Shown in pieces: positions 1-33,885 of a DNA stretch of 64,000 nt. Under the pieces are notes generated by a model. The model was given only the letters and a program-made list of their open reading frames with translations, had not been told where the DNA came from and ran no database searches. Numbering within the stretch: position 1 is the stretch's first letter; each line of letters begins with the position of its first letter. The stretch is from Acidimicrobiia bacterium (lineage in GTDB: Bacteria; Actinomycetota; Acidimicrobiia; Spongiisociales; ZC4RG35): assembly GCA_028284765.1 (NCBI GenBank), contig JANQRA010000019.1:1-64000 (forward strand). Direction: 5' to 3'. A program made the position numbers and the translations under genes.

Positions 1-282
1 GTCGTCGATTCCAGCTCGGATCCAAACCTTCCCTCTCTACTCGATCAGTTCCCGGGCAGCCGTTACGCCATGGCAGAAACAAAAGGACACGCAGAGATAC
101 ACCATCGCGACGGTCGCAGGTTCACACTGCAAGCTGACCGACCAAGCGAGGAGAACGAGCCGACCATCGCAGCGTCCGTGCTTTATGCCTTCGAGTCAGC
201 TGGACAAGCCCTTCCTGAAGCCCTAGATATTACGGTTGGTGACTCCTCGTCTCGCCATCACATTTGGCACCTCAGCAGCTAG
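1..282 (+). CDS. 3' end of an unknown gene (partial)
   Basis: The reading frame is open from the first base of the window to the TAG at 280-282, so this is the last 93 or so residues of a protein that begins upstream; the ATG at 70 need not be its start. The visible part is hydrophilic, with no membrane segment and no motif I recognise. Its stop codon shares the bases CTAG with the stop of the convergent STAND gene. Coding is likely from the open frame and amino-acid composition, but function is unknown. Confidence 0.5.
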   Translation, partial: VVDSSSDPNLPSLLDQFPGSRYAMAETKGHAEIHHRDGRRFTLQADRPSEENEPTIAASVLYAFESAGQALPEALDITVGDSSSRHHIWHLSS

Positions 283-8771: not shown

Positions 8772-8778
8772 CTGAGCA

Positions 8779-12444: not shown

Positions 12445-12462
12445 GTGCACCCCTCTCGAATG

Positions 12463-12494
12463 AGATTTGATCATTGCTCAAGTAGATCAAATCT
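12463..12494. promoter_or_regulatory. Inverted repeat upstream of the amidohydrolase
   Basis: AGATTTGATC at 12463-12472 and its exact complement GATCAAATCT at 12485-12494 are separated by 12 bases. The repeat ends 18 bases before the GTG start at 12444. It is a candidate operator, perhaps for the XRE-cupin regulator encoded 0.5 kb away; I found no second exact copy in the window, so the assignment is weak. Confidence 0.4.
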
Positions 12495-12587
12495 TACTCG
12501 ATTCGGATGAGGGCTGCGGCGGGCTCCTAGAAACTCGAAGACAGGTCGACTTGACCGGTGCTCAGCGAACGGGCCCCGACGCGACAG

Positions 12588-12983: not shown

Positions 12984-13012
12984 GACAGTTCCCTTTCGTC
13001 AGGATTCCCCGC

Positions 13013-18183: not shown

Positions 18184-18543
18184 GTGAGACGAGTAATACC
18201 CGGAGCTCAGGCAGCATCAGGTCGCCCATTCTCGGGCGCGGCCATTGCCAACGGGCTCGTGTTCATCTCGGGACAGACGTTCGCCGATGGAGCTGATGTC
18301 GAAGCCCAAACGCACGGTGCACTCGACAAGGTCTCGGAGCTCCTCAACCATGCAGGGACGAATCTGGATCACGCAATGAGATGCACTGTCTACATGACGG
18401 ACCTCACCTTGTACGACCGCATGAACGTCGCATATGCCATGCATTTTCAAGACGATCCGCCGGCTCGCGCAGTGGTTGGAGCTGCTCTCGGACCTGATTG
18501 TCTGGTTGAAATCGACTGCATCGCAATCGTCCCCGATGACTGA
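18184..18543 (+). CDS. RidA family protein
   Basis: A 119-residue RidA/YjgF protein. I place the start at GTG 18184, eight bases or so after GGGAG; frames reaching upstream to 18010 lack a ribosome site. Family features: GLVFISGQTFADG, ELLNHAGTNLDHAMRCTVYMTD, and VEIDCIAIVPDD. Unlike the RidA at 12588, it keeps the arginine in PPAR, so classic enamine/imine deamination is possible. It ends 39 bases before the first GntR-type operator of the next cluster. Confidence 0.85.
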   Translation: MRRVIPGAQAASGRPFSGAAIANGLVFISGQTFADGADVEAQTHGALDKVSELLNHAGTNLDHAMRCTVYMTDLTLYDRMNVAYAMHFQDDPPARAVVGAALGPDCLVEIDCIAIVPDD

Positions 18544-18562: not shown

Positions 18563-18603
18563 TTGACGGGATACTAGATGCGATATACGATCTTCCGCAT
18601 ATC
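18563..18603 (+). promoter_or_regulatory. Promoter and GntR-type operator A, upstream of the PotD operon
   Basis: TTGACG (18563-18568), a 17-base spacer and TACGAT (18586-18591) make a good sigma-70-like promoter. Over the -10 lies GATATAC-N8-GCATATC (18582-18603). The same site occurs before both GntR genes and before the DUF3830 operon. It lies 77 bases before the start of the binding-protein gene. Confidence 0.65.
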
Positions 18604-18680
18604 AGACTCCGCGTATCAGAACCAGCCCGACGGGTTGCAGTTTCTGTGCAGAGGCCCGGCTGTCCCGAAGGAGGATGTCA

Positions 18681-19757
18681 ATGCTGAGTTCAAGGTCATC
18701 TCGGTGGATATACGCAGGGCTTGTAGCCGCTCTTGTTCTCGCCGCCTGTGGTGGCGGATCGTCAACCACCACCAACGGATCCAGTGCTTCCGCCGATGGG
18801 GTCGTAATCGAGGGAGGCACCGGCCTCTTTGGGGAGTGTCTCCGTACTGCCTTCTTTGACCCCTTTACCGCAGAGACAGGGATCGAAGTGTTGGAAGCGC
18901 CCGAAGACTCCGGCATGGCTCGCACGCAACTGGCGGTCGATACTGGGACATACGAAGTCGATGTCGAACAGCTCGATTCCGCTTCACAGCTGGAAGAGTT
19001 CGGCGAAGATCTTCTCGAGCCCATCGACTATTCCCTCGTTCCGCGCGACGAGATCATCGATGGCTTAGCCCTCACATACGGAGTCGGTGTCAACCCCAAC
19101 GCATTCGTTGTCGCATACAACGAGGAGTTTCTGCCTGAAGGCGAGCGACCGGACAGCATTGAGGATTACTTCGATCTAGAGAAGTTCCCCGGCAAGCGCG
19201 GACTGTTCGAGTTCGCCGAGTCACATTGGATCGCACTAGCTCTTCTTGCTGACGGGGTTCCGCCAGAAGACATCATCCCGTTCGACTTCGACCGCGCTTT
19301 CGCCAAACTCGACACAATCAAAGACGAGCTCGTGTTCGCGTCGAGCGGCACCGACATGCGTGCCCTTCTCGATTCTGGCGAGACGCCCCTCCAGATCACT
19401 TTCGCCAGTCGTGTCAAGGAGTCGCAGGACGCAGGTTTCCCTGCTGGAGCTGCGTGGGATGGCTTCAGCATCTTTGCCAATTTCCTGGCCATACCAAGAG
19501 ACAATCCCAATGTGGATGCGGCAATGGATCTAGTCGCCTTCATATCCCGTAGTGACGTAAGCGGTGGAATGTCGGGCTGCGTTGGCGTAGGACCCGCAAA
19601 CGCCGAAGCAACAGTGGATCCAGCGGCAGAACCTTTCCTTCCGACCTCGCATCTCGACCAGCGGCATGTTGTGCTTTCGTCAGACGACGCCGTGGCCTGG
19701 ATGACAGGCAACGAAGAAGAGATCTTCAACCGCTATCAAGCGTGGAAGACGGGTTAA
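18681..19757 (+). CDS. PotD/Fbp-like ABC substrate-binding lipoprotein
   Basis: A 358-residue extracellular binding protein of the spermidine/putrescine/iron type. The start is ATG 18681, with AAGGAGG six bases upstream; an ATG at 18675 abuts the ribosome site. The signal peptide ends in the lipobox LAAC with the cysteine at residue 23. Later segments (VIEGGTGLFGECLRTAFFDPFTAETGIEV, YEVDVEQLDS) follow the family pattern. It heads an operon with an isochorismatase-type hydrolase, two permeases and an ATPase. Ligand unknown; polyamines are only one possibility. Confidence 0.85.
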   Translation: MLSSRSSRWIYAGLVAALVLAACGGGSSTTTNGSSASADGVVIEGGTGLFGECLRTAFFDPFTAETGIEVLEAPEDSGMARTQLAVDTGTYEVDVEQLDSASQLEEFGEDLLEPIDYSLVPRDEIIDGLALTYGVGVNPNAFVVAYNEEFLPEGERPDSIEDYFDLEKFPGKRGLFEFAESHWIALALLADGVPPEDIIPFDFDRAFAKLDTIKDELVFASSGTDMRALLDSGETPLQITFASRVKESQDAGFPAGAAWDGFSIFANFLAIPRDNPNVDAAMDLVAFISRSDVSGGMSGCVGVGPANAEATVDPAAEPFLPTSHLDQRHVVLSSDDAVAWMTGNEEEIFNRYQAWKTG

Positions 19758-19812: not shown

Positions 19813-20445
19813 ATGGCGTCTTTGAGCAGTGCCGCTCTACTCGTGGTAGACATCCAGAACGACTTCGTTCACCCGGCAGGCAAGGTAGGCGAAGCAACCG
19901 GAGACATGTCTCCCCTCTTGTCGGCAGTCGACTCGATCAATCGACTGATCGCAACGGCTCGACAAGTCAAGGTTCCGATCGTCTACATCCAGGTCACGCA
20001 TTCACCGGAGCTCGATGCGCCCTCATACCGGGCTCGATATACGAGACGTGGCATGACGCCTGAAGATTTGCTTTGTGCCGATGACTCCTGGGGCGCCGAG
20101 TTCTACGACGGTCTCACGCCACCTGAACCAGGAGATCTCGCGCTCACGAAGCATGGCTACGGGGCCTTCACCTCGGGAGAACTCGGTGACTACCTACGCG
20201 ACAACTCGTTGGACACGGTGATCGTCACCGGTGTCGTCACTGAACTCTGCGTCCTTGCAACAGTCTCCGGAGGTTTTGAGGCCGGCTTTCACGTGTTGGT
20301 TCCGCGGGAAACGACAGCAAGCGTCGATATAGATGCGGCCAACGCGGCCCTCTCGTTGATAGACAAGTTCTACGGAACCATCGCCAATGTGGATGAGCTG
20401 CTCGTTGATCTCCAAAAGTCATCGTCGAAGCGGCTCGAAACATGA
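19813..20445 (+). CDS. Isochorismatase-family cysteine hydrolase
   Basis: A 210-residue hydrolase with the family catalytic triad visible: aspartate 13 in LLVVDIQNDF, lysine in TKHGYGAF and cysteine in VTELCV. Relatives include nicotinamidases, N-carbamoylsarcosine amidases and RutB, all of which cleave amide or carbamoyl bonds. Its position inside a transporter operon, with its stop overlapping the first permease start (ATGA), suggests it acts on the imported compound or a product. The true isochorismate substrate is unlikely in this context. Confidence 0.87.
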   Translation: MASLSSAALLVVDIQNDFVHPAGKVGEATGDMSPLLSAVDSINRLIATARQVKVPIVYIQVTHSPELDAPSYRARYTRRGMTPEDLLCADDSWGAEFYDGLTPPEPGDLALTKHGYGAFTSGELGDYLRDNSLDTVIVTGVVTELCVLATVSGGFEAGFHVLVPRETTASVDIDAANAALSLIDKFYGTIANVDELLVDLQKSSSKRLET

Positions 20446-21323
20446 CAGATGGTCCCGGCCAGGCACCTCCGCCATCATTTGCGCTTCGCCATTTGAAGGA
20501 CCGTTGGCTACTTGCTCTAGCGCCGGGCGTAGCTGTCATCGCCCTCTTGTACTTCTGGCCCTTGATTGTCATGGCGTCGCGCAGCTTCACCGAACCGTCA
20601 TTTGGCCTTCAGAACTTCGAACGGTTCATCGACTCACCGGTTGCGGTTCGTTCTTTGCTTGCGACTGTGCTCATGGCATCGATTTCGACAGTGGCTTGCA
20701 TTCTCATCGGCTACCCATACGCGTATCTCATGGCCACTGTCAGTCGGAAGTGGGCAATCGTCTTAGGCGCCGCCATGCTCATACCCGCAGCCGTCAGCTT
20801 CCTCGTCCGTGCCTTCGCCATGCAAGTCCTTCTTTGGGACACAGGTGTGATCAACAGCGCTCTACGCCAAATCGGCCTGATCGACGACCCACTGCCTCTC
20901 ATACGAAATGACCTCTCGGTGACCCTCGTCATGAGCGCTTTGTTGTTGCCGCTATTCGTCCTGCCGGCGTTTTCCGTGATGCGACGCATCGACCCCGACT
21001 ACTTGTCGGCCGCTGCTCTCCTCGGTGCTTCACCAATGCGCAGTTTCCTGAGGGTGTACCTGCCGCTGAGCATTCCTGGAGTAGCTGCGGGGTCGTTGCT
21101 CGTATTCGTCATAGCACTCGGCTACTACATAACCCCGACCCTTTTTGGCGACGGCTTCACCTTGTATCTCGGCGAGCTGATCGTCTTCTACACGCAGCGG
21201 CTCGATTGGGGTCTGAGTAGTGCTGTGTCCATGGTGCTACTGGCGGTCGCCCTGATATTCATCTGGGGAGCGTCGAGGCTGGTTCGCATCACAGACGTGT
21301 TTGGCGTGGAGATCGAGGATTGA
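20442..21323 (+). CDS. PotB-like ABC transporter permease
   Basis: A 293-residue inner-membrane permease with about six transmembrane segments, matching the first permease of PotABCD-type importers (FYFWPLIVMASRSF near the N-terminus; the EAA loop is AALLGASPMRSFLRVYLPLSIPG). It forms the channel together with the next gene. Four-base overlaps on both sides indicate tight translational coupling. Confidence 0.88.
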   Translation: MTDGPGQAPPPSFALRHLKDRWLLALAPGVAVIALLYFWPLIVMASRSFTEPSFGLQNFERFIDSPVAVRSLLATVLMASISTVACILIGYPYAYLMATVSRKWAIVLGAAMLIPAAVSFLVRAFAMQVLLWDTGVINSALRQIGLIDDPLPLIRNDLSVTLVMSALLLPLFVLPAFSVMRRIDPDYLSAAALLGASPMRSFLRVYLPLSIPGVAAGSLLVFVIALGYYITPTLFGDGFTLYLGELIVFYTQRLDWGLSSAVSMVLLAVALIFIWGASRLVRITDVFGVEIED

Positions 21324-22153
21324 GGCTGACCGTCACTGGGTTCAGTACAGGTCGAGCCTTGCTCGCCGTGTTCTCACTGCTCGTGGCCACAGCCTTGCTA
21401 TTGCCAATCGTGATCGTTGTGCTTCTGAGCGTCGGCGAAGACCGCATCATGGCCTTTCCTCCCCGTGGGTTCACGCTCAATTGGTTCGCTGACGCTTTCA
21501 CTAGCGACCGGTGGCGAAGCAGGTTTGCATCCAGTCTCCAAGTAGGTGCCGTGTCTGCGACCGCAGCCACCGTGTTGGGCACCCTCACCGCTCTCGGACT
21601 CAAGAGAACCAAGTTGCCTGGCAAGAGCATCATCTACGGGTTGCTCCTGACCCCACTGATTGTGCCAACTGTGACTGTCGGCATCGGCATGTTTTTTGTG
21701 TGGTTGGAGGGATGGTCCTTCGGGCCGCTGGTGATCGGTGGCGGCCTGACGGGCTCGCTACTGGGATATGTAATGGCACATACAGTTCTGGCGCTCCCCT
21801 ATCCGCTAATCACGGTCACGGCCAGTCTTATGACAGTCGACCGAAACTTGGAGCTCGCTGCAGGGGGAATGGGAGCATCGCCCTGGGTCACGTTTCGGCG
21901 GGTGACCCTTCCATTGATAATGCCTGGAGTGTGGGCAGGCTTCATCCTTGCCTTTCTGACCTCTTGGGACGAAGTGATCGTGGCCCTCTACATGGCCACA
22001 CCCCAATTCGGGACGATCCCAGTTGAGTTGTTCGGCCAGATCCGCCAGAGCCCAACCCCGACGGCGGCCGCGATATCGACGATGCTCATGGTCGCCGGCG
22101 TAGTGATCTTCCTGGCCGCCCTTACGTTTAGACGACGGGGAGCACAGCAATGA
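21320..22153 (+). CDS. PotC-like ABC transporter permease
   Basis: The partner permease of 277 residues, with about six transmembrane segments and the EAA loop AAGGMGASPWVTFRRVTLPLIMPG. The start is TTG 21320, overlapping the preceding TGA; no ATG is available nearby. PotC-type features (MAFPPRGFTLNWFADAF) place it as the second permease of a PotABCD-like system. Confidence 0.88.
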   Translation: MRLTVTGFSTGRALLAVFSLLVATALLLPIVIVVLLSVGEDRIMAFPPRGFTLNWFADAFTSDRWRSRFASSLQVGAVSATAATVLGTLTALGLKRTKLPGKSIIYGLLLTPLIVPTVTVGIGMFFVWLEGWSFGPLVIGGGLTGSLLGYVMAHTVLALPYPLITVTASLMTVDRNLELAAGGMGASPWVTFRRVTLPLIMPGVWAGFILAFLTSWDEVIVALYMATPQFGTIPVELFGQIRQSPTPTAAAISTMLMVAGVVIFLAALTFRRRGAQQ

Positions 22154-22163
22154 GCAGGACGAA

Positions 22164-23261
22164 ATGACCGACCGGAAGAGAGAACCCGCCCTGGAACTAC
22201 GAGGCGTCACAAAGGAGTACGACGGAGGTGTCCTCGCCGTCGATCACATCGACCTCGTCGTCCGCGATCAGGAGTTCCTCACGATTCTCGGTCCTTCAGG
22301 CTCCGGAAAGACGACCACTTTGAAGCTGATCGCAGGGTTCGTGACGGCCAATGCCGGCCAGATCATGCTCGACGGAGAAGACGTCTCACGAACTCCGCCA
22401 TACAAACGCAACCTAGGAATGGTCTTTCAGAACTATGCCCTCTTTCCACACCTGACCGTGGAACAGAATCTTCGGTTCCCGTTGGAGATGCGACGCCTGC
22501 CGGCAGCAGAGTCGAGCGAACGTGTAGCCGAGGCATTGGATCTGGTTCGCCTCACTGGAATGGGCGATCGCTACCCCCGTCAGCTATCAGGAGGCCAACA
22601 GCAACGGGTGGCTCTGGCGAGGGCCATTGTCTACCAGCCACGCGTGCTGCTGATGGACGAGCCTCTTGGAGCCCTCGACCGACGTCTTCGAGAAGACCTT
22701 CAGTTGGAGTTCAAGAGATTGCATCAGGAACTGGACGTGACCGTGATCTATGTCACTCACGACCAGGAAGAGGCATTGTTGCTGAGCGATCGGATTGCTG
22801 TGTTCAACGAGGGCCGGATCGAGCAACTCGGTAGTGGCGAGGATCTCTATCAGTGGCCACGAACGTCGTTTGTCGGATCGTTCATGGGCGACTCCAACAC
22901 GTTCCGCGGAGTGTTCGAACAAAGGGGTGAAATCGGATCGATTCGCCTGGCGAACACCACGTTGCATGGCTCAGTCCACCCAGACTCCAACCTGAAGAAC
23001 GGCGAAAGCGCCGTCATGATCGTGCGACCGGAGGACTGCGCGGTGGGCCACCTCGAGCCCACGGTCAAGACGAATCGCCTCGAGGTCGTGGTTGAACAGG
23101 CTGTCTATCTGGGGTCGACCATCAAATACGTTGTCGAATACGACGGTATGACCCTGTATTCGCGAATGCCCGCTCGGTCGAGCGATCCACCTCAAGAGCC
23201 AGGTGCCGGTGTATCCATCCAATGGGCCGCCAACGATGCTGTGATCGTCCCGGACAGATAA
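22164..23261 (+). CDS. PotA-like ABC transporter ATPase
   Basis: The 365-residue ATPase of the importer. Walker A GPSGSGKTTTLK, Q-loop FQNYALFPH, signature LSGGQQQRVAL, Walker B LLMDEPLGALD and H-loop THD are all present. A C-terminal TOBE-type regulatory domain (about 285-365, with VMIVRPED) is typical of PotA/MalK-like ATPases. It closes the operon; the next gene, 157 bases on, has its own promoter. Confidence 0.92.
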   Translation: MTDRKREPALELRGVTKEYDGGVLAVDHIDLVVRDQEFLTILGPSGSGKTTTLKLIAGFVTANAGQIMLDGEDVSRTPPYKRNLGMVFQNYALFPHLTVEQNLRFPLEMRRLPAAESSERVAEALDLVRLTGMGDRYPRQLSGGQQQRVALARAIVYQPRVLLMDEPLGALDRRLREDLQLEFKRLHQELDVTVIYVTHDQEEALLLSDRIAVFNEGRIEQLGSGEDLYQWPRTSFVGSFMGDSNTFRGVFEQRGEIGSIRLANTTLHGSVHPDSNLKNGESAVMIVRPEDCAVGHLEPTVKTNRLEVVVEQAVYLGSTIKYVVEYDGMTLYSRMPARSSDPPQEPGAGVSIQWAANDAVIVPDR

Positions 23262-23352: not shown

Positions 23353-23396
23353 TTGACGCCATTCGCGGGCCTGCGATATACCATGCTCCGCATATC
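23353..23396 (+). promoter_or_regulatory. Promoter and operator B, upstream of GntR regulator 1
   Basis: TTGACG (23353-23358) and TATACC (23377-23382) form a promoter with 18-base spacing. GATATAC-N8-GCATATC lies at 23375-23396, the best copy of the shared site. It ends 22 bases before the TTG start of the regulator gene, which suggests autoregulation. Confidence 0.65.
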
Positions 23397-23418: not shown

Positions 23419-24114
23419 TTGGCAACGCTTCAGCCACTAGTAACCAAACCGGAGAGTCTCACCCAAATGGTATATGACGCCATCCGGCTCGCCATCGTGT
23501 CAAAGGAGATTGCGCCAGGCACACCTGTGTCTGAGGCACAGTTGGCACGCGATCTACAAGTGAGTAAGACCCCCGTACGCGAAACCCTCCTTCGGCTTCA
23601 AACAGTCGGCCTAGTCGAGCCCGACGGTGCTCGCGGCCTCAGAGTGATCACGCCGTCCCTCGACCGAATCGCTGATGCCTACGACATCCGAGGAATGCTG
23701 GAGGCCGGCGCGGCCCGACTTGCTGCGGAGCGCGCCAGTGCCGAGGAAAAGGAGGGCATCCTCCAAAAGGCAAACGAGTCGCTGTCTGCTGCACAATCGG
23801 GAGACTCAACCGGCTTCGCTCGCTTGGACGCCGAGTTCCATCTTGAGATAGCGGCCGCGGCAAAGAACCCCCGACTGCTCACTCTGGTGGAGGATGCGCT
23901 GAGCCTCACCCGGGTACTGCGTCAGAGGGATGTCCCCGCCAAGACTGATGCCACCAGATGCGGCGATCAGCATGTCGGGATTGCTCAGTTGATCATTGCC
24001 GGCGATCCGGCCGGCGCCGCCCGACACGCGGCCCAACACGCAGAAGACGTACAGAGAATCGTTCTCGGTTTGGCCGACTTTGCAGATGGTGACCCGACTG
24101 CCGGCATCGCCTGA
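23419..24114 (+). CDS. FadR-type GntR regulator 1 (FCD domain)
   Basis: A 231-residue regulator starting at TTG 23419, with GAGGAG six bases upstream. Residues about 10-75 are a GntR winged helix (PVSEAQLARDLQVSKTPVRETLLRLQTVGLVE), and the rest is an FCD ligand-binding domain with metal-site-type residues in DAEFHLEIAAAA and a histidine in CGDQHVGI. It is a clear full-length paralogue of the protein at 33128-33823, of equal length. FadR-type GntR proteins usually repress catabolic genes until their substrate or an intermediate binds. Confidence 0.9.
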   Translation: MATLQPLVTKPESLTQMVYDAIRLAIVSKEIAPGTPVSEAQLARDLQVSKTPVRETLLRLQTVGLVEPDGARGLRVITPSLDRIADAYDIRGMLEAGAARLAAERASAEEKEGILQKANESLSAAQSGDSTGFARLDAEFHLEIAAAAKNPRLLTLVEDALSLTRVLRQRDVPAKTDATRCGDQHVGIAQLIIAGDPAGAARHAAQHAEDVQRIVLGLADFADGDPTAGIA

Positions 24115-24269: not shown

Positions 24270-24311
24270 TTGACTGACATATGAGATCTGGTATACGATG
24301 CTCCACACATC
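24270..24311 (+). promoter_or_regulatory. Promoter and operator C, upstream of the DUF3830 operon
   Basis: TTGACT (24270-24275), an 18-base spacer and TACGAT (24294-24299). The operator variant is GGTATAC-N8-ACACATC (24290-24311), which keeps the central ATGCTCC of sites B and D. It ends 21 bases before the GTG start of the first DUF3830 gene. The two arms are less perfect than in site B, so affinity may differ. Confidence 0.58.
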
Positions 24312-24332: not shown

Positions 24333-24848
24333 GTGCAGAACAAAGAACCAGTGGCCGATGTAGCTGACCTGAGTCACCGTCAATTGCGGCAGATCAGAAT
24401 CTCTTTTCCTGCCTCAGGTGCCGCCGCCACTGCGACTCTCCTCGAGGAGGACAGTCCAAACACCACGACAGCGATCTGGGACATGCTCCCCCTCCAGCTG
24501 AGAGCAACACACGACATGTGGTCGGGTCATCTAGTCCGCGGGCACCTTGAGGGGAACCCGTACCTGAGCCCCGAGAACGTGCTCACCCACATCCCCATAC
24601 CGGGCGACATCTTCTACTACCACCGGCCTGCCAACTACTACAGAGGAAACCCCTACGGACGTTCGGAGTCCGCTGAGATAGGAATCGTCTACGCGTCTGA
24701 TACACGACCACAAGGCCCACGTGGACCCGAGGCCGTGAACCTGTTTGCAGAAATCGACTCAGGACTGGATCAGATCGCCGAAGCATGCCGAGAGATTCTC
24801 ACCGACGGCCAACAGGAACTGGTCATCGAAAGGGTGATCGAGTCGTGA
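24333..24848 (+). CDS. DUF3830 family protein 1
   Basis: A 171-residue protein starting at GTG 24333. It shares with the next two products an ordered set of positions: an AIWDMLP-type segment, a PEN... segment, then PGDIFYYHRP, an acidic/IVY strand, and a final LVIERV. I assign all three to DUF3830, a small beta-barrel family that I recall as cyclophilin-like; catalytic activity is not established. It begins the operon controlled by operator C. There is no signal peptide, so it is cytoplasmic. Confidence 0.72.
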   Translation: MQNKEPVADVADLSHRQLRQIRISFPASGAAATATLLEEDSPNTTTAIWDMLPLQLRATHDMWSGHLVRGHLEGNPYLSPENVLTHIPIPGDIFYYHRPANYYRGNPYGRSESAEIGIVYASDTRPQGPRGPEAVNLFAEIDSGLDQIAEACREILTDGQQELVIERVIES

Positions 24849-25351
24849 GGAAGCTTCTCTTCGAGATGAACGGGGCAAAGGCCGTGGCCGAGATGCATGA
24901 CGACATCGTCCCCAACACGTGTGACGCCATTTGGGACATCCTGCCGGTCGACGGCATGTCGATCCATGCAAACTGGGCGAGCCGCGAGATAATGCTTCAC
25001 CTCCAGGGCGACAAGGTTCTTCGCCTGCCCGCCGAAGGCCACAACTACCGAGGCACCATTGCTCCCGGCGACATCGTGTACTTCTGGAGGTCGCCACAGA
25101 TGTCACGAGGCAAACAACTTGCCTACAGCTCGGAGTTCCAACGAGAGCTGTCTGAGTTCGCGATCTTCTACGGGGAGCCATCTGGTGGCGGGCTTGCAGC
25201 CAACGATCCTTCCCGCGACCACGACGCCAGCTTGCAGGTCGTGACTCTCTTCGCCACGTTCATAGACCTTCCGGCGGAGTTCGTCGAACAGTGCGAATCG
25301 GTTCGTCACCAGGGCCTGCAACACCTCACCGTAAGCCGCTACGAGACCTGA
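24845..25351 (+). CDS. DUF3830 family protein 2
   Basis: A 168-residue protein that begins at GTG 24845, overlapping the previous stop by four bases. It is the most typical of the three: VRKLLFEMNGAKAVAEM, TCDAIWDILPVDG, REIMLHL, PGDIVYFWR and a FAIFYGEP strand. Translational coupling suggests equimolar products that may act together or form a mixed oligomer. Function unknown. Confidence 0.75.
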   Translation: MRKLLFEMNGAKAVAEMHDDIVPNTCDAIWDILPVDGMSIHANWASREIMLHLQGDKVLRLPAEGHNYRGTIAPGDIVYFWRSPQMSRGKQLAYSSEFQRELSEFAIFYGEPSGGGLAANDPSRDHDASLQVVTLFATFIDLPAEFVEQCESVRHQGLQHLTVSRYET

Positions 25352-25361
25352 GGATTCACGA

Positions 25362-25811
25362 ATGACCGACATCAAGATCCAACTCGGAAGGGCTGAGGCA
25401 ATCGCCAAACTGGATACCGCCGGCGCGCCCGTCACAACAGAGTGGCTACTTGGACAATTGCCCTTCAGCGATCAGGCCATCCACAGCATGGAGAACGGTC
25501 GAGAGGTCTACTCCATCCTCGACGCCATCGATACCCCTCCACCAGAGAACCAAAGTATCTACCAAGCCGTTGGCGACCTCTTCGTCTATCACAAGCCAGC
25601 GATTTTCGTCGATCCCGAATGGCCAAGGCACACGAGGAATTATCTGGTTGTCGGCTTCATCTACGAGCGTGACAGCGCTATTCGAGGGATAAGCGGTCCA
25701 CTTGCTGCCAACATCGTTGGAACCATCACAGATGGGCTGACAGAACTTGCGCATGAGGCTCCGCGAATGAGACGGGAAGGCATGGGCCAACTCAGCATCG
25801 AGCGGCTCTAG
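25362..25811 (+). CDS. DUF3830 family protein 3
   Basis: A 149-residue protein with the same ordered motifs as its two neighbours, including PPPENQSIYQAVGDLFVYHKP and the ending LSIERL. It is the most diverged at its N-terminus (IKIQLGRAEAIAKLD). It lies 10 bases after gene 2 and 14 bases before the amidohydrolase gene. The three copies differ too much to be a recent triplication. Confidence 0.68.
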   Translation: MTDIKIQLGRAEAIAKLDTAGAPVTTEWLLGQLPFSDQAIHSMENGREVYSILDAIDTPPPENQSIYQAVGDLFVYHKPAIFVDPEWPRHTRNYLVVGFIYERDSAIRGISGPLAANIVGTITDGLTELAHEAPRMRREGMGQLSIERL

Positions 25812-25825: not shown

Positions 25826-27424
25826 ATGCTGGACCTGATCATTAGGGGCGGCGAGATCGCGGATGGGACCGGACAGCCCATCTTCAACGGCGATGTCGGA
25901 ATCAAAGACGGAAGAATCATCGAAATCGGCCAGCTCGAGTGGGTTGACAGCAAGGCCGGGATCGATGCGACGGGACTGATCGTTTCGCCTGGGTTCGTAG
26001 ATGTCCACACCCACTCAGACATCACAATCCTCGTCGACCCGCGGGCAGAGAGCGCTGTTCGGCAAGGCGTCACCACACAAGTGTTCCCGAACTGCGGCAT
26101 GGGCCTTGCGCCTGCAGTAGACGGTGCTCGCGATGAAATCGAGCGCGAGGTCGGGCGGTTCGGACTCGAGGTCGATTGGGAGTCGGTCGGCGATTACTAC
26201 GAACGAGTAGAGGCCAGCAGCCCAGCCGTGAATGTCGTCCCAATGGTGGCCCAAGGCACGGTGCGCAGAGCGGTAATGGGGCTGCGAACAGAACCTCCGT
26301 CGCCGAGCGAGATGGAGGCGATGAAAGAGCACGTCGAGGCAGCGATGAGCAGCGGCGCGCGCGGAATGTGCTCTGGCTTGAGATATGTGCCCAGTGGTTA
26401 TGCCTCCGAGCACGAACTGATCGAATTGTCCAAGGTTGTCGGTCGATACGGCGGCATCTATGTCAGCCACATCAGAAGCGAGGGCGACAACGGCGACTGG
26501 TTCGATGCGCTTCGCGAGGCAATTGCAATAGGAAAAGGCGCGGGCGTGCCGGTCCAGGTATCTCACCTCAAGGCCGTTGGTACCGATGTCTGGGGAATGA
26601 GCCAGAAGGCACTCGATATCATCCACGAGGCTCGGGACGCTGGCGTCGACGTCATGTGTGACCAATACCCATACGAAGCTACGAGCAGCACGCTTTTTGT
26701 CCTGTTCCCGCAGTGGGCACAGGAAGGCGGGATTGAACAGTTCCTAGCTCGAACCAGCGATCCCGACCATGCCGCCGACATCGAGTCCTCTTTTCGGCGA
26801 GCACTAGGACTCCGCGGAGGTGGTTCGAGAATGACTATCACGGAGTACGGCCCCAACTCATCAATGGAGGGAAAGACCCTCGCTGAAGCCGCCGAAGAGC
26901 TGGACTTGAACGAGTTCGCTGCCGCCAAGGAACTCCTGGAACAATCCAGTGGACGAGTCAGCATGGTGTTTCACACTCTGGAGCGTGAAGACGTGGAGAG
27001 GATCTTCGCCGATCCGCTGGTCATGGTCGCAAGCGACGGCTCGGCAGTAGCGCCAAGCGGTCCCCTGGCCGCCGACTACTACCCACACCCACGCAACTAC
27101 GGCTGCTTTCCACGTGTGCTGGGAGAGTTCGTCAGGGAGCGCCGTCTCACCACCCTCGAGCAGGCCATCAAGAAGATGACCTCCCTCCCCGCGTCGCGTT
27201 TTCGACTCGAACGTCGAGGGCAGATCAAACACGGCTGGCATGCCGACATAACGGTGTTTGATCCGGCGATCGTCGCCGATCAGGCGTCGTTCAATGAGCC
27301 GAGACGATTCCCACGAGGGATTCATCACGTCTTGGTCAACGGTCGTCCAGTCGTTGTTGACGACGTTCACACAGGGGCCACACCCGGCCGCCTGTTACGA
27401 CGAGAACCGCACGGGGTCGACTGA
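25826..27424 (+). CDS. N-acyl-D-amino-acid deacylase-like amidohydrolase
   Basis: A 532-residue amidohydrolase of the D-aminoacylase family. It shows GFVDVHTHSDI (HxH metal ligands), FPNCGMGLAP (metal-bridging cysteine region of this family), VSHIRSEGDN, VQVSHLKAVG (histidine ligand) and VASDGSA (catalytic aspartate). Family members hydrolyse N-acyl or N-carbamoyl bonds of D-amino acids and of related ring-opened compounds. The TGATG overlap with the LLM gene shows co-translation. Together with DUF3830 and LLM proteins it probably processes the imported substrate. Confidence 0.87.
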   Translation: MLDLIIRGGEIADGTGQPIFNGDVGIKDGRIIEIGQLEWVDSKAGIDATGLIVSPGFVDVHTHSDITILVDPRAESAVRQGVTTQVFPNCGMGLAPAVDGARDEIEREVGRFGLEVDWESVGDYYERVEASSPAVNVVPMVAQGTVRRAVMGLRTEPPSPSEMEAMKEHVEAAMSSGARGMCSGLRYVPSGYASEHELIELSKVVGRYGGIYVSHIRSEGDNGDWFDALREAIAIGKGAGVPVQVSHLKAVGTDVWGMSQKALDIIHEARDAGVDVMCDQYPYEATSSTLFVLFPQWAQEGGIEQFLARTSDPDHAADIESSFRRALGLRGGGSRMTITEYGPNSSMEGKTLAEAAEELDLNEFAAAKELLEQSSGRVSMVFHTLEREDVERIFADPLVMVASDGSAVAPSGPLAADYYPHPRNYGCFPRVLGEFVRERRLTTLEQAIKKMTSLPASRFRLERRGQIKHGWHADITVFDPAIVADQASFNEPRRFPRGIHHVLVNGRPVVVDDVHTGATPGRLLRREPHGVD

Positions 27425-28458
27425 TGGTCTCCTTTGGCATAGGCATGGCACCAGTTGAGCCTTTGTCGAAAGTGATGGAAACGGCACAGCTCGCAGAGAG
27501 CCTCGGGTTCAACCACTTTGTGCACGCAGACCAGCGCTTTGCGGGCGAAAAGGACGTGTTCGTGACGCTGGCCGCAGACGCCCTGGCTACCAAACGCATC
27601 GAACTGGGACCGTGCGTGTCCGACCCATACAGCCGAATTCCGGCGATGATTGCGGTGGCGATAGCCAGTCTCGACGAACTCTCAGCTGGCCGGGCCTTGC
27701 TGACTCTTGGAGCCGGAGGATCCGGATTCCGGCAGATGCACATCCATCGAGAGAAGGTGAACACCGCCCTGCGGGAGACAATCCTCATGACTCAATCGCT
27801 TCTTCGCGGTGAGACCGTTGACTTTGAAGGGGACCTCTTCAGTTTGTCCGACGCGAACCTGAACTTCGACACTCGGCCAGACATCCCGATCCTGCTTGCC
27901 AGCCGAAGTCCAAGGAACCTGGAATTGGCCGGCGAACTAGCTGACGGTGCCGTGATCGCGTCGTACGCCGCCAAAGAGCAGCTGACCTTCGCCATCGAGC
28001 ATGTTGTCAGAGGGGCGGCCAAAGCTCAGCGATCGCTCGACGACTTGCGACTCGTCTCGTGGGTCTATACCTCGATCTCGGAGGACGGAACGAAGGCAGT
28101 CGAGAACGTGAGACCTTTTGTGACCCAGGCTCTCATCAACACCTCACCAAACACATATCCCACGATTTTCGAAGGTTTTGACGACGGGCTTGCGGACTTC
28201 CTCCTCAAGTGCAAAGAAGCAGGGCCCGCCGGTCTAGAGGAGGCCTACGCGGATCGCAGGCACCTGACTGACCAAGTCATCAAGCGATTCTCCGTTGCCG
28301 GGACCGCAGAAGACTGCATTCAAAAGATCGAAGAGATTGTCTCGATGGGCATCAACGAGATATGGCTCCGCTGCTTCTCTGCCCCACGATCAGAGATTGA
28401 GCACGAGAAGGTGATCGTCCCGTTCGCAGAACAGGTCATGCCTCACTTCACCACCTAG
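27424..28458 (+). CDS. LLM-class oxidoreductase, methylene-H4MPT reductase-like
   Basis: A 344-residue LLM enzyme. FGIGMAPVEPLSKVMETAQLAESLGFNHFVHADQR and ELSAGRALLTLGAGGSG follow the pattern of F420-dependent Mer-like oxidoreductases. It is the last gene of the operator-C operon and converges on the ABC ATPase gene at 28506. A short hairpin (CCGCC-ACTC-GGCGG, 28481-28494) in the 47-base gap could contribute to termination. Substrate unknown. Confidence 0.85.
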   Translation: MVSFGIGMAPVEPLSKVMETAQLAESLGFNHFVHADQRFAGEKDVFVTLAADALATKRIELGPCVSDPYSRIPAMIAVAIASLDELSAGRALLTLGAGGSGFRQMHIHREKVNTALRETILMTQSLLRGETVDFEGDLFSLSDANLNFDTRPDIPILLASRSPRNLELAGELADGAVIASYAAKEQLTFAIEHVVRGAAKAQRSLDDLRLVSWVYTSISEDGTKAVENVRPFVTQALINTSPNTYPTIFEGFDDGLADFLLKCKEAGPAGLEEAYADRRHLTDQVIKRFSVAGTAEDCIQKIEEIVSMGINEIWLRCFSAPRSEIEHEKVIVPFAEQVMPHFTT

Positions 28459-28505: not shown

Positions 28506-29285
28506 TCAGACGGCTGGGTCAGCCTGCCCTACTTGGTGAATCTCCAACACCCTCTCTCGCACTTCTCTGGCCGCATCGAAGAATTTGATGCTCGACCGCA
28601 TCGACGGATCTCTTTCCTTTGGCAGTTCGACTACCACCTCTGCAAGGATCCGACCGGGCCTTGGGGACATGATCAGAACCCTGTCGGAGAGAAAAACGGC
28701 CTCCTCGATGTCGTGTGTTACGAGCATCGCCGTCGCGCCCAGCTCCCTGATCATGCGACTTAACTCGTGCTGCAATCCCTCTTTGGTGAACTCGTCCACG
28801 CCGGTAAACGGCTCATCCATGAGGACGATCGATGGCTTGTGGACAAAGGCACGGGCAAGCGACACTCGCCTCTGCATCCCACCCGAGAGCTCAATCGGGT
28901 AAGCCTTCTCGAAGTCCTGCATCCCAACCATCCTGATGAGTTCGTCAATAGCCTCTGGATCGGATCTCCCGACAACCTCGAGGGGAAGCCTCACGTTGTC
29001 GTACACGCTCCTCCACGGCATCAGACTGGACTCTTGGAATATGTAGCCCACCACGAAACCACCATCTGGGCTGTCCCTTTGAATGGTTCCTTCCGTCTGG
29101 TGGTCTACACCGGCAATCAATCTGAGCAAGGTGCTCTTCCCGCACCCGCTGGGGCCAACGATGGCCAAGGTCTCTTGGTCCCGGACTGAAAGAGAAACGT
29201 CTGTGAGAGCCGTCACATCGTCACCTTTCGCGGTGGAATACCGCTTGCCGATCCCGGTCATCGTGACCACATCTGGTTGGCTCAT
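28506..29285 (-). CDS. NitT/TauT-type ABC transporter ATPase (second system)
   Basis: A 259-residue ATPase. I use ATG 29285, which overlaps the permease stop (ATGA), rather than the upstream ATG at 29315. Walker A GPSGCGKSTLLR, Q-loop FQESSLMPW, signature LSGGMQRRVSL, Walker B VLMDEPFTGVD and H-loop THD are present. It ends the minus-strand operon that starts at GntR regulator 2. It differs clearly from the ATPase at 6747, so the two importers are separate systems. Confidence 0.9.
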   Translation of the reverse strand: MSQPDVVTMTGIGKRYSTAKGDDVTALTDVSLSVRDQETLAIVGPSGCGKSTLLRLIAGVDHQTEGTIQRDSPDGGFVVGYIFQESSLMPWRSVYDNVRLPLEVVGRSDPEAIDELIRMVGMQDFEKAYPIELSGGMQRRVSLARAFVHKPSIVLMDEPFTGVDEFTKEGLQHELSRMIRELGATAMLVTHDIEEAVFLSDRVLIMSPRPGRILAEVVVELPKERDPSMRSSIKFFDAAREVRERVLEIHQVGQADPAV

Positions 29286-30046
29286 GCGCGCTCGTTCCAC
29301 GGCATCACCCGCCATCCGAGAAAGACGACACTCCCGTACAGGGCAAGTCCGAGAGCGGTGAGGATGACAAAAGCACCGAACGCAGCTGTCGTATTGAAGG
29401 TGTACTGAGAGTTGAGGATGAGGAACCCCAGTCCCTCACTCGAACTCACAAACTCCGCCACGATCGCTCCGACGAGCGCACCTGAGACTGCTATGCGAAG
29501 ACCGTCGAAGAAGTAGGGAAGTGAATTCGGAAGCCGGACCTTGTAGAACACGGAGAACCGGCCAGCGCCCAGCGACTGGAGCAGATGTACGAGGTTCCGA
29601 TCGACTGTCGCCAGGCCCGTGCTGACATTGATGACTATTGGGAAGAAGGTCAGAATCACAATCAAGATCACCCGCGAGGTGTTCGTGAACCCAAGCATGA
29701 TGTAGAGAATCGGAGCGATGGCCACCTTCGGCAAGACCTGGAGAGCCACGACGTAAGGCATGATCATGCGACTCAGCACGTGTGAAAGAGTGATGACGAC
29801 GGCGAGTGCGAACCCGAAAACGACCCCAATCGTGAAGCCGGTCAGGGCCGTTCGAAGCGTAGCCAGGGTATGCCGAAGCCAGTCCACATCTGCGGTGAAG
29901 TAGACCTCGAAGATCGCCGACGGAGCGGGGAAAAGGAAGCTGGGAACATCGAACCAGCCGACCATCAACTCCCACAACACCAGACCGAGCAGGAACGAGA
30001 GAACGGACAAGCCGTAGCCCGCCTGTCTGGACAGGCTACGGCTCAT
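29282..30046 (-). CDS. NitT/TauT-type ABC transporter permease (second system)
   Basis: A 254-residue permease with about six transmembrane segments and the family loop SLGAGRFSVFYKVRLPNSLPYFFDGLRIA. It pairs with the ATPase by a four-base overlap and follows the binding-protein gene by 31 bases. The spacing shows one operon of SBP, permease and ATPase. Confidence 0.88.
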   Translation of the reverse strand: MSRSLSRQAGYGLSVLSFLLGLVLWELMVGWFDVPSFLFPAPSAIFEVYFTADVDWLRHTLATLRTALTGFTIGVVFGFALAVVITLSHVLSRMIMPYVVALQVLPKVAIAPILYIMLGFTNTSRVILIVILTFFPIVINVSTGLATVDRNLVHLLQSLGAGRFSVFYKVRLPNSLPYFFDGLRIAVSGALVGAIVAEFVSSSEGLGFLILNSQYTFNTTAAFGAFVILTALGLALYGSVVFLGWRVMPWNERA

Positions 30047-30077
30047 CGTTGCTGTTCAGCCATCAACCCTCATCAAC

Positions 30078-31232
30078 CTAGGGTTGCAGCACGTAGTCGT
30101 TGGTGTAGAGCGTCGCGGGATCGAACTCGGTCTCGATCTCAAACAACTCACGCAGGTCAGGCAGCGTGGCAGCGATCAAGTCAGGATCGAACCAACCAAG
30201 GGTCAGAGGATCAACTCCTTCGGCCTCGGCAGGGTCTATGCCGTACTGGGCCTCTAGCGCAACCTGCCACTCGGCCAACGTCTGGTCGTAGTCACGTCCA
30301 TCGTTGATTTCGACGAAGTCGGTGATGCACTCCTCAGCGCTCACCGCGCAGAAGTGCAGTCCGGTCGTAGTAGCCCATGCGATGGCCCGAGCCACCTCAG
30401 GGTGCTCCTCCATCAGGCTCTTCTGTACCACGACTCCTGTAAGCGGCGAAGCGATTCCATAGTCACCGAACAGGAAATAGCCGACCGTCTCCCCTTGCTC
30501 AGGAGCGATGATGTTCAAGCTGGCAATTGCTCGCGCGAAGGCGACAATCGCGTCAACCTGGCCTTGGAGTAGCGCTGGATTCAACGCCGAGAACCCGATG
30601 TTCTGAATCGTGACATCGTCCTTGGAAACTCCCTGACTCTCCAAGAACACGTCGAGGTAGGCAGCCGACAAGCTTCCTTGCGGCACACCGATCGTCTTGC
30701 CAACCAGATCTGATGGGTTACTGATCCCTCCGCCTTCGAGGAACATGAGGGCAACAGGGTTTCTCATGGCTCCTGCTGTGATCGCCACCAGTGGTGGGGC
30801 ATCGGGGTTGGCGTCTGCGATGAGCATCTCATCGAGAAGGCTTCCCTGTGTGTATGCGAAACCGCCTGAGTGGGCAGCAACGGCCTGGACTGCCTGTGAT
30901 GTGCCATCGAGAACCACCGTCTCGATCTCGACGTTCACGTCCTCAAAGAACCCTTGAGCTTGAGCCGCATAATCCTGTGGCGCGCTACTGGTCACACCTC
31001 CAACATAGAGAGTGACAACCACCGGTTCCTCAGGGAACGGCGATTGCGTAGTTGTTGTGTTCTCAGATGGATCCGTCGAGTCCGGAGCTTCCCCTGTAGT
31101 CGTCGGGGTAGCGCCTCCGTCCGTGGTGGCAGTACCGTCGCCCGTCGTCGTTGTCGACCCGCCAGGCGAACAGGCAGACAGCACCAGGACCATCACCGTG
31201 CCCAACACCAGCGTCAATGACCTTCTCTTCAT
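30078..31232 (-). CDS. NitT/TauT-type ABC substrate-binding lipoprotein (second system)
   Basis: A 384-residue SsuA-like binding lipoprotein. The start at ATG 31232 has AAAGGA eight bases upstream; the frame continues to 31352 but would run into the preceding gene. The signal peptide ends VLSAC with the lipid cysteine at residue 21, followed by a long Thr/Gly/Pro-rich tether (to about residue 70) that would hold the protein away from the membrane. The ligand-binding region has GKTIGVPQGSLSAAYLDVFLESQGV. Ligand unknown. Confidence 0.86.
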   Translation of the reverse strand: MKRRSLTLVLGTVMVLVLSACSPGGSTTTTGDGTATTDGGATPTTTGEAPDSTDPSENTTTTQSPFPEEPVVVTLYVGGVTSSAPQDYAAQAQGFFEDVNVEIETVVLDGTSQAVQAVAAHSGGFAYTQGSLLDEMLIADANPDAPPLVAITAGAMRNPVALMFLEGGGISNPSDLVGKTIGVPQGSLSAAYLDVFLESQGVSKDDVTIQNIGFSALNPALLQGQVDAIVAFARAIASLNIIAPEQGETVGYFLFGDYGIASPLTGVVVQKSLMEEHPEVARAIAWATTTGLHFCAVSAEECITDFVEINDGRDYDQTLAEWQVALEAQYGIDPAEAEGVDPLTLGWFDPDLIAATLPDLRELFEIETEFDPATLYTNDYVLQP

Positions 31233-31335
31233 CTGTCTTTCCTTTCGTAGTGATCCCCAAGATTTCGCTCGCTCCAGAGACCGATGCGCCCCGGATCCGT
31301 AACCCCACAGAGGTTCCTTCCGCTTGTTCAGTGCA

Positions 31336-32208
31336 TCAGGCCCCTCCGTCACCCGCTATGGCCGACTTGATGAATCCGTACTGGGCGTCACCGATCGTGA
31401 GCGGAGCGCGCTGGCCAGCCAATCCCCGAGCCCAGATCACGTCGACCCCAGCCTCTCTTGCAGCATCGTGATCGAGCCCTCCCGGCGGGGAGCTGATGTC
31501 GAGAACGGTTGTGTTCGCCAACTCCACGAAGTGCGCTTGGTGGACTGTGTCCTCGACCGGCACGGTGTTGACGACGACATCAGTACCCTGGACAGCATCG
31601 TGCCAACCGCTGAGAGGAACGGGGTTGGCGCCCCTACGGCGTGCGGTCTCGCGCTGGACCGGATTTCGAGCTGCCACGTTCGTGTGAGAACCCAGCGCCA
31701 CAAGTGCATCCGCAATAGCACTGCCGGTGGCTCCGTATCCCAAGACCGTAACTTCGAGTTCACGTAGCAGCCGTCTGGTCTTCCCAATCAGCTCGCCAAC
31801 GACTGCTTCGGCCACCGCCGATGCAACGACCACTGCAAGAGCACGATCAGACTTGAATTCGTAAACAGGTATCGACAGTCGTTTGGCGACCCTCTCCAAA
31901 GACGGGGTCTGCTTGCCGAGCACCAACCCACCTTCAGACGCTTGCGTGAGACTCAGCAGCGACTCCGACAGAAACAGTGGCGCAGAGGCATCAGGGGCGT
32001 ACAGCTGATCTTCGGCGGCGAGACCTGGAGCAGGACAAACGATCCACTTGCGGTCGGCGACGGCTTGTTCGAGAGACGATGAGTTCGCCACTCCGCTCAA
32101 ATTGGCCGAGTCGAGACCAAAGACGGCGACGTCGTGACCCTCCTCATGAAGAAGCTCCGCGACACGAGCCTCTCTTTGGTCACCACCGAGGATCGCGAAC
32201 GAGCTCAT
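31336..32208 (-). CDS. DpaA-like (dipicolinate synthase subunit A-type) dehydrogenase
   Basis: A 290-residue protein in two Rossmann-like halves. The second holds the NAD(P)-binding stretch VTVLGYGATGSAIADALVALG, followed by VAARN, as in DpaA/SpoVFA of spore-formers, and the length agrees (about 297 in Bacillus). In Bacillus DpaA works with DpaB to oxidise the DapA product to dipicolinate. No DpaB-like flavoprotein is seen here, and the gene lies 11 bases after a DapA-like gene in a transport operon, so a related catabolic or biosynthetic oxidation is more likely than dipicolinate for spores. Confidence 0.72.
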   Translation of the reverse strand: MSSFAILGGDQREARVAELLHEEGHDVAVFGLDSANLSGVANSSSLEQAVADRKWIVCPAPGLAAEDQLYAPDASAPLFLSESLLSLTQASEGGLVLGKQTPSLERVAKRLSIPVYEFKSDRALAVVVASAVAEAVVGELIGKTRRLLRELEVTVLGYGATGSAIADALVALGSHTNVAARNPVQRETARRRGANPVPLSGWHDAVQGTDVVVNTVPVEDTVHQAHFVELANTTVLDISSPPGGLDHDAAREAGVDVIWARGLAGQRAPLTIGDAQYGFIKSAIAGDGGA

Positions 32209-32219: not shown

Positions 32220-33131
32220 CTAGACCCCAGCGCCAATGCTCTCGAGCGCCGCATCAACGCTCCTAATCACCTCTTCAAACCCACGTCGCTCGATATCCGA
32301 CAGCGGGGCGAAAGGAAGCCTGACCATCGGAGTTCCTGCGAAGCCACGGAACGACATCGCCGCTTTGATGGCGCGAGGCTGTCCCAAGGCACGCACCTGT
32401 TCGAAGAACGGTGCTAGAGCCTTCTGAATCTTCAGCGCGATCTGATGTTCAGTAGTTGCGACAGCCTTACCAAGTGAGCAGAAAGCCTGAGGAAAAGCCC
32501 AGAAGTTCGTTGATGTAAGGCCGTCCGCCCCTGCAGACAAGGTCGCCACGGCTACCAAGTCGGAAGCGGCCAGTATTCGGAAAGGACTCGAACTCTGGCG
32601 GGCGACTTCCACAGAGTCGACAAAACGGGCTATCGAGCCTGTGCCCTGTTTCACGGCTCCGAACGTCGGCATGTCTGAAATCGCGGCGAGCACAGCCGAG
32701 CTCGCATCCCAGCCAAAAGCCGGATTGTTGTAGAGAACAAGGGTGCCCGAGCAGTGAGCATCGAGATGACCGAAATGCCGAATCGCGTCGAGGTCGGTGC
32801 ACTCGGTCATGGACGGGGGACCTACCATCACTTCGTCTGCGCCGGCATCAACCAGTCTTTTTGCCAGGCGCAGGGTGGCGTCGGTGGAAGGGTGGGCGGC
32901 ACCAGCCATGATCACGGCATCGGGACGCAGCTTCCTAGCGGTCTCGACAAGATCGACCCGCTCGTCATCGTCAAGACTTTGAAACTCGCCGTAGGCACCC
33001 GTCAGAAGAAATCTGTCGACACCAACCTCTTTGGCTCGGTCGAGGTTCTCCGCTGTGGCGACGGCATCCAGCGTTCCGTCGAAGCCGAACTGCGTCGGGG
33101 CAATCGCGTAGAACTGCCGCTCGAGAGTCAT
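32220..33131 (-). CDS. DapA/NAL-family class I aldolase
   Basis: A 303-residue member of the dihydrodipicolinate synthase/N-acetylneuraminate lyase family. The start at ATG 33131 overlaps the GntR stop by four bases; the longer frame to 33419 is spurious. The catalytic tyrosine is in LYNNPAFG (about 137) and the Schiff-base lysine in GAVKQGTGS (about 164). GAYGEFQSL replaces the usual GTTGE motif, which suggests a substrate other than that of true DapA. Family enzymes cleave or form C-C bonds with pyruvate or similar oxo-acids. Confidence 0.83.
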   Translation of the reverse strand: MTLERQFYAIAPTQFGFDGTLDAVATAENLDRAKEVGVDRFLLTGAYGEFQSLDDDERVDLVETARKLRPDAVIMAGAAHPSTDATLRLAKRLVDAGADEVMVGPPSMTECTDLDAIRHFGHLDAHCSGTLVLYNNPAFGWDASSAVLAAISDMPTFGAVKQGTGSIARFVDSVEVARQSSSPFRILAASDLVAVATLSAGADGLTSTNFWAFPQAFCSLGKAVATTEHQIALKIQKALAPFFEQVRALGQPRAIKAAMSFRGFAGTPMVRLPFAPLSDIERRGFEEVIRSVDAALESIGAGV

Positions 33132-33823
33132 ACGGATTCGGCTGGCGAGTCCGACTGATCGAAGTCTGCGAGGTTCAACACCATCCGCTGGACGTCGTGC
33201 GCGTGCTCGATAGCTTTCTCTGCTGCGACAAAGGAGTCGCCGGCGGCGATGGCGTTGGCGATTTCGACATGCTGGTTGCCGCACTTCGTGGCGTCTGTGG
33301 TAGCTGGAACATCCCGCTGGCGAAGAACCCGAGTCAGACTCAAAGCGTTCTCTACGAGTGTTTCCAGGCGAGCACTGCCCGTCGCAGCTGCGATATCGAG
33401 ATGGAAAATCCCGTCCCACTTAGAAAAACCTGCCGAGTCGCCTGACTCTGCCGCTGCCAGTGAGGCTGCCGCTGATCTGAGGATTGTGAGCTTTGCTTCT
33501 TCCGTGGCGTGCTCGGCGGCCAACCTTGCCGCACCCGACTCGAGAATCCCACGGATCTCGTACGCCTGTGATATCCGTTCGAGCGAGGGGCTGACAACTC
33601 GAACTCCACGGCTTCCGTAAGGCTCAATCAAGCCGACCGATTGCAGCCGAAGCAACGCCTCTCGCACAGGCGTCTTGCTGACTTGCAACTCCCGCGCAAG
33701 CTTGGCTTCCGACACGGGGGTCCCCGGTGCGAAGTCCTTCGACACGATGGCCTCCCGAATCACGTCGTACACCATCTGGGTGAGACTCTCAGGCTTGATC
33801 GAAAGTGGCTTCAGCGTTGACAA
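33128..33823 (-). CDS. FadR-type GntR regulator 2 (FCD domain)
   Basis: A 231-residue regulator starting at TTG 33823. The winged helix and FCD domain match regulator 1 segment by segment (for example KPESLTQMVYD, LQVSKTPVRE, ENALSLTRVLRQRDVPA, DATKCGNQHVEIA). It is the first gene of the minus-strand operon and lies 20 bases after operator D. Because both regulators share recognition-helix sequence, they should bind the same DNA site; differences in the FCD domain may allow two effectors. Confidence 0.9.
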   Translation of the reverse strand: MSTLKPLSIKPESLTQMVYDVIREAIVSKDFAPGTPVSEAKLARELQVSKTPVREALLRLQSVGLIEPYGSRGVRVVSPSLERISQAYEIRGILESGAARLAAEHATEEAKLTILRSAAASLAAAESGDSAGFSKWDGIFHLDIAAATGSARLETLVENALSLTRVLRQRDVPATTDATKCGNQHVEIANAIAAGDSFVAAEKAIEHAHDVQRMVLNLADFDQSDSPAESV

Positions 33824-33843: not shown

Positions 33844-33885
33844 GATATGCGGAGCATGATATATGGAATCTCAAGCCAGCGTCAA
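33844..33885 (-). promoter_or_regulatory. Promoter and operator D, upstream of GntR regulator 2
   Basis: Read on the minus strand: TTGACG (33885-33880), an 18-base spacer and TATCAT (33861-33856). The operator is CATATAT-N8-GCATATC (33865-33844) with central ATGCTCC as in site B. The right half is identical to sites A and B; the left half differs at its ends. Confidence 0.62.

Follow-up and report, generated by a model that had tools for sequence, protein, structure and literature searches.

The structure 3KOP, solved in 2009 and comprising six chains in its entry, is that of a DUF3830 protein with no assigned function; no paper on DUF3830 and no function for the family were found in the literature searched, and nothing relevant was found there on cyclophilin-like proteins associated with 5-oxoprolinase or allantoin. 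Pictet-Spengler chemistry, which is carried out by enzymes of similar fold (see below), joins an amine and a carbonyl via a carbinolamine. A catalytic residue of one such Pictet-Spenglerase, McbB, is Glu97 (PMC9366743). Ureidoglycolate lyase frees urea from ureidoglycolate (PMC3793230). The lyase reaction is of the reverse kind to a Pictet-Spengler-type reaction, and proceeds on an acylated carbinolamine.

Three DUF3830 genes and their operon

The window (the whole stretch of 64,000 nucleotides that was analysed) contains three genes, D1, D2 and D3 (Table 1), which are the sole DUF3830 genes of this 2.9-Mb genome. As originally predicted, they are tandem DUF3830 genes in one operon, closely spaced on the same strand; each scores above the gathering cut-off of PF12903, the Pfam model of DUF3830 (26 bits, whole-protein score), with a match that spans nearly the full length of the protein, so that none of the three lacks the family profile. 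D1 and D2 share 4 bp (GTGA), 10 bp separate D2 from D3 and 14 bp separate D3 from an amidohydrolase gene, which overlaps the following gene, encoding an LLM-class oxidoreductase, by 1 bp. The start of D2 was corrected to the GTG at 24845 from the GTGA overlap and the 168-aa orthologues. Common ordered motifs at low overall similarity had also been predicted, but this motif list is only in part correct: where AIWDxLP and PGD[IL] would be expected, D3 reads TTEWLLGQLP and VGDL. Against shuffled sequence the similarity reaches Z 26 for D1/D2, 22 for D1/D3 and 5.7 for D2/D3; judged by this measure, the likeness of D1 to either of the others is beyond chance, and that of D2 to D3 weak but significant.

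Table 1. Coordinates of the DUF3830 operon, its neighbours and the operator-like sites in the window
Feature	Position	Strand	Remarks
RidA-family protein	18190..18543	+	PF01042; upstream of first operator-like site
Operator-like 22-bp site	18582..18603	+	upstream of polyamine-type ABC/isochorismatase operon
Solute-binding protein, polyamine-type ABC transporter	18675..19757	+	PF13416
Isochorismatase-fold hydrolase	19813..20445	+	PF00857; weakly RutB/biuret hydrolase-like
Two ABC permeases and ATPase	20442..23261	+	by eye from sequence
Operator-like 22-bp site	23375..23396	+	upstream of GntR1
GntR1, GntR-type regulator	23419..24114	+	family by eye; TTG start inferred from GntR2 alignment
Operator-like 22-bp site	24290..24311	+	21 bp upstream of D1
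D1, DUF3830, 171 aa	24333..24848	+	GTG start; PF12903, 82 bits
D2, DUF3830, 168 aa	24845..25351	+	GTG start; PF12903, 59 bits
D3, DUF3830, 149 aa	25362..25811	+	PF12903, 61 bits
Amidohydrolase, D-aminoacylase/N-acyl-D-amino-acid deacylase type	25826..27424	+	PDB 1m7j, E 9e-84
LLM-class oxidoreductase	27424..28458	+	PF00296; PDB 8qpm, E 1.5e-41
Taurine/sulfonate-type ABC transporter tauB, tauC, tauA	28506..31352	-	convergent with triple operon
DpaA-like dehydrogenase	31336..32208	-	PF16924
DHDPS/NAL-family aldolase	32220..33137	-	PF00701; adjoins tauA in L011 too
GntR2	33128..33823	-	69% identical to GntR1
Operator-like 22-bp site	33844..33865	-	upstream of GntR2-DHDPS-DpaA-tauA-C-B

The active-site residues of D-aminoacylase (HxH, Cys, two His, Asp) have counterparts in the amidohydrolase when it is aligned with 1m7j, and these are invariant in five orthologues. 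Its nearest NCBIfam model, PRK09061.1, yields 218 bits, below the cut-off of 340. The LLM oxidoreductase is nearest to F420-dependent methylene-H4MPT reductase and falls below every NCBIfam cut-off among the matches listed.

With up to 3 mismatches allowed, the whole genome contains four copies of a 22-bp operator-like site, GRTATACSATSNTCCRCAYATC, all of them in the window, and the reversed control pattern yielded 0 occurrences. By their positions the four sites mark out an uptake and breakdown unit of approximately 15 kb (18.6–33.9 kb). The site is presumably bound by the GntR proteins, which are 69% identical over 228 aa in an alignment that starts at residue 31 of the longest GntR1 open reading frame. 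In each of the four relatives examined, orthologues of tauB-C-A, 71–80% identical, adjoin the triple.

Other genes of the region touch on known pathways. RidA, isochorismatase and LLM genes occur together, which would recall a pyrimidine pathway of the RutA type, but all of them score far below the RutA/B/C cut-offs and this candidate was rejected. The dehydrogenase resembling subunit A of dipicolinate synthase remains below the curated DpaA cut-offs and adjoins the DHDPS-type aldolase gene; it probably serves the same pathway as another kind of dehydrogenase. By eye, a three-subunit molybdenum hydroxylase (xanthine dehydrogenase/CO dehydrogenase-like) and a Nudix-like gene were noted at 13681–17322 on the minus strand, directly upstream of the regulon, and no copy of the 22-bp site was found among them.

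Conservation and ancestry of the triple

When genome contigs of bacteria and archaea were searched with D1, four Acidimicrobiia-type loci (L011–L014) emerged, all of which contain the whole operon in the order D1-D2-D3-amidohydrolase-LLM, followed by the convergent tauB-C-A, at 66–80% identity; orthologues of D1 in these loci are 62–65% identical, and orthologues of D2 are 73–75% and those of D3 66–69% identical. In a family search that covered 395 genomes of the class, the triple was present, besides the window's genome, in G549, G567, G634, G659 and G704, to four of which L011–L014 belong; the order D1-D2-D3 with the same amidohydrolase and LLM genes downstream recurs in these five at approximately 62–75% identity. 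No genome with one or two D-type genes alone was found among the 395, and the notion that only one of the three might be conserved thereby failed, all three being kept in every relative that has any. DUF3830 is present in 48 of 396 genomes of the phylum, among which no triple was found apart from that of the window's genome; the survey of DUF3830 genes in threes, which had originally been proposed as a check, yielded six Acidimicrobiia genomes only among those sampled. The amidohydrolase orthologue (66–68% identity) is encoded in exactly the six triple genomes out of 138 of the order, the next matches being 38–39% identical (Fisher p 1e-10 for co-occurrence with the triple, not corrected for relatedness). 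A second amidohydrolase gene in G634 (C79:26081-27664; locus L117), 38% identical to the window's, has one in-frame TGA, which may mean a pseudogene, a frameshift or an assembly error. Within the window's own family the triple is patchy, being found in one genome only, and the six genomes, at 62–75% identity, could carry one block moved by transfer.

For each of the three genes dN/dS is 0.07–0.21; D1, D2 and D3 are all under purifying selection. In a maximum-likelihood tree built from 76 members of the family each of them forms a clade with 100% support on a long stem, and a clade uniting all three has a support of 43/2; their mutual distance (about 20–30% identity) is similar to that from other DUF3830 clades. 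The three are ancient, separate lineages, and a recent triplication was rejected because the fully supported separate clades sit on long internal branches. Since a tandem DUF3830 pair on a plasmid of Paracoccus pantotrophus (L050:7965-8884) clusters inside a different clade, tandem copies arose at least twice; this pair is located beside genes for a ureidoglycine aminohydrolase and a Zn-dependent hydrolase.

In plasmids, D2 and D3 gave weak matches only, except for one Rhizobium match to D3 (5e-7), which is also the best match to D1. In a marine Rhizobium locus (L051:7911-12481) the DUF3830 gene with the best plasmid-search E-value to D1 adjoins a solute-binding protein/permease/ATPase set that by eye resembles the window's polyamine-type ABC transporter. 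A different arrangement was seen in three loci from genomes of family f6 (L097, L098, L099), near 5.8–9.1 kb of each locus: there the DUF3830 domain is preceded, at the N-terminus, by a segment (for example TTEDIRAVARRGKTEL) that is similar to the start of a neighbouring larger protein (about 600 aa) and looks like a shared module.

Conserved residues, fold and single-copy relatives

The family core consists of P-x-T, L-P, H, an invariant E, mostly with N as the next residue, an invariant G, and Y; Glu and Gly are found in 76 of 76 sequences, His in 93%. The invariant Glu corresponds to E81 of D1, E64 of D2 and E62 of D3. The invariant Glu and Gly and the near-invariant His and Tyr are present in D1, D2 and D3 of all six genomes, and so are losses peculiar to single paralogues: D2 is without the conserved N after the invariant E and without G and N near the C-terminus, and D1 is without a second E, kept by D2 and D3, which is missing in the so-called type-2 clade too. 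The loop columns of D2 lie in regions with a pLDDT below 50, for which reason the alignment is unsure there. Such paralogue-specific losses read as the marks of specialised subunits.

Structure prediction of the single proteins, likewise suggested originally, was carried out for D1 and D2 with AlphaFold2 (pLDDT 76 and 75), and both models are 3KOP-like: 3KOP is the best fold match of either (Z 20.5 for D1, 18.5 for D2), and by these models D1 and D2 are shown with the cyclophilin-like DUF3830 fold. McbB and KslB follow at Z 17.3–18.2 for the two models (best values 18.2 and 17.9), the matched parts being residues -2..143 of McbB and 174..317 of KslB; 3KOP and KslB are less than 1 Z apart in the case of D2, which was counted as a tie. 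TM1367 (1zx8) matches at Z about 14.5 (14.7 in one comparison) and ordinary cyclophilins at about 12–13, the comparison being one of fold. A 24-member DUF3830 profile reaches McbB with E 0.0039 around the conserved His, in an alignment that covers the first part of McbB only; AF2241 (2nnz) is reached with E 1.4e-7. A common fold does not prove common chemistry.

A context of known substrate class, which the original prediction had expected to be informative, was found via the single-copy relatives, whose neighbours act on ureides and cyclic amides. The type-2 DUF3830 clade is located in urate/allantoin clusters. Genes for OHCU decarboxylase are present in all 22 type-2 genomes outside the class (phylum sample), versus 82 of 396 overall, and in 20 of the 22 they are at most 7 kb from DUF3830; two Acidimicrobiia members of the clade, G054 and G024, are without them. 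One locus (L076 of genome G152; 3994-13428) carries in order xanthine permease, OHCU decarboxylase, urate oxidase, allantoate amidohydrolase, allantoinase and DUF3830, followed by a regulator, hydroxypyruvate isomerase, tartronate semialdehyde reductase and glyoxylate carboligase; the decarboxylase, oxidase, both hydrolases, reductase and carboligase exceed the curated cut-offs and the isomerase is just below. With its single DUF3830 gene after allantoinase, this nearly complete urate-to-glycerate cluster is well suited as a model for studying what the family does. A role of type-2 DUF3830 in place of the ureidoglycolate lyase AllA (PF04115) was considered: AllA is absent in 21 of 22 type-2 genomes, but this was dropped as evidence, since only 5 of 396 genomes across the phylum have AllA and its absence is therefore uninformative.

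Plasmid copies of DUF3830 stand next to AllB in Azospirillum and dihydropyrimidinase in Aureimonas; in Paraburkholderia the neighbours are dihydropyrimidinase together with two racemase-family genes, in haloarchaea amidohydrolases and M20 enzymes. In the canonical clade, which contains the 3KOP-like sequences, the neighbours are amidase, Asp/Glu-racemase-like and class III aminotransferase genes. The gene that recurs beside DUF3830 encodes a hydrolase for amides and ureides, cyclic or linear, and the amidohydrolase of the window fits this pattern, although its D-aminoacylase-like type differs from the cyclic-ureide hydrolases by most single copies. From the single-copy contexts (urate/allantoin, dihydropyrimidinase) the substrate class therefore follows as amide or ureide.

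Candidate functions and comparison with known systems

The reading we tentatively prefer is that D1–D3 act as one unit, most likely a hetero-oligomeric enzyme, in a GntR-controlled pathway for an amide or ureido acid, beside the amidohydrolase; the heteromer, the catalytic residues, the reaction and the substrate are what we infer from the data above. One coupled mRNA would give rise to the D1-D2-D3 unit, the amidohydrolase and the LLM oxidoreductase, and the pathway would import and break down an N-acylated or ureido (amide-bearing) acid. On this substrate the DUF3830 unit might carry out an acid-base step by means of the invariant Glu and the nearly invariant His, either breaking the C-N bond of a carbinolamide (N-acyl hemiaminal) or shifting a proton or stereocentre at the alpha carbon, and the product would then be hydrolysed by the D-aminoacylase-type amidohydrolase.

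It is somewhat unlikely, in our estimate, that D1, D2 and D3 are three separate enzymes instead, each a homo-oligomer, for consecutive or parallel steps or for related substrates of the same amide pathway. Their distance from one another is about as great as that from other clades, each retains the invariant Glu and the His, and single DUF3830 genes elsewhere evidently work without partners; three separate enzymes would, moreover, leave an identical conservation pattern. The heteromer is nevertheless favoured because the genes are never found single or in pairs in the six genomes, are tightly coupled in translation, and show paralogue-specific losses; those of D2, at near-universal positions, fit a helper subunit better than a stand-alone enzyme. 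A hetero-oligomeric unit is a plausible reading of the sequences.

Less probable is a non-catalytic role, in which DUF3830 proteins would bind or deliver substrate or allosterically support the amidohydrolase; an enzyme of the amidohydrolase superfamily often adjoins DUF3830 (in the window and elsewhere), and the lack of any DUF3830 paper in the literature searched accords with it, but the conservation of Glu, Gly and His looks like that of an active site and the kinship of fold is with enzymes. That the three genes are a duplication lately acquired by transfer, or in decay, and have no specific function in common would suit the patchiness of the triple in the window's family, but is very improbable given the purifying selection on all three genes, their deep divergence, the fixed gene order and the common operator-like site.

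Beyond the enzyme unit preferred here, a wider proposal may be ventured, doubtful as it is: DUF3830 proteins might be unrecognised acid-base enzymes that act on N-acyl hemiaminals or alpha carbons of ureido and amido acids with Pictet-Spenglerase-like C-N chemistry carried out on small molecules by a cyclophilin-like fold, the triple being a hetero-oligomeric form in which catalytic and partner subunits have diverged. Both the fold and the gene contexts would be accounted for if the family acted on N-acyl carbinolamines or at the alpha carbon in amido acids. For DUF3830 the locus and the survey supply a substrate class (amides, ureides), genetic partners that can be named, candidates for the active-site residues and a link in fold to Pictet-Spenglerases, and its function is now directly testable; a heteromer of three paralogues, if true, would neatly exemplify how a small fold of an enzyme gives way to division of labour between subunits.

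Among known systems, 3KOP (Arthrobacter sp. FB24) is of the same Pfam family (phmmer E 8.5e-11 with D1), but its closest Actinomycetota sequences, those of the canonical clade, have other neighbours and are not found in tandem among the genomes sampled. The atypical cyclophilins TM1367 and AF2241 have the same fold and are single small proteins of no known function. The Pictet-Spenglerases McbB (listed by the PDB under the name cucumopine synthase) and KslB are alike in fold, but they comprise about 300 residues, of which the fold fills half, as opposed to the 149–171 aa of D1–D3, and belong to a biosynthetic context. The single-copy ureide clusters (urate to allantoin to glyoxylate) likewise place DUF3830 by amidohydrolases that open or trim ureides; they differ in having one DUF3830 gene, an allantoinase rather than a D-aminoacylase type of enzyme, and no LLM partner noted. 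D-aminoacylase and N-acyl-D-glutamate deacylase (1m7j, 3gip) are of the same gene type as the amidohydrolase of the window, with metal and catalytic residues aligned, but the latter is below the nearest curated cut-off and is accompanied by three DUF3830 partners.
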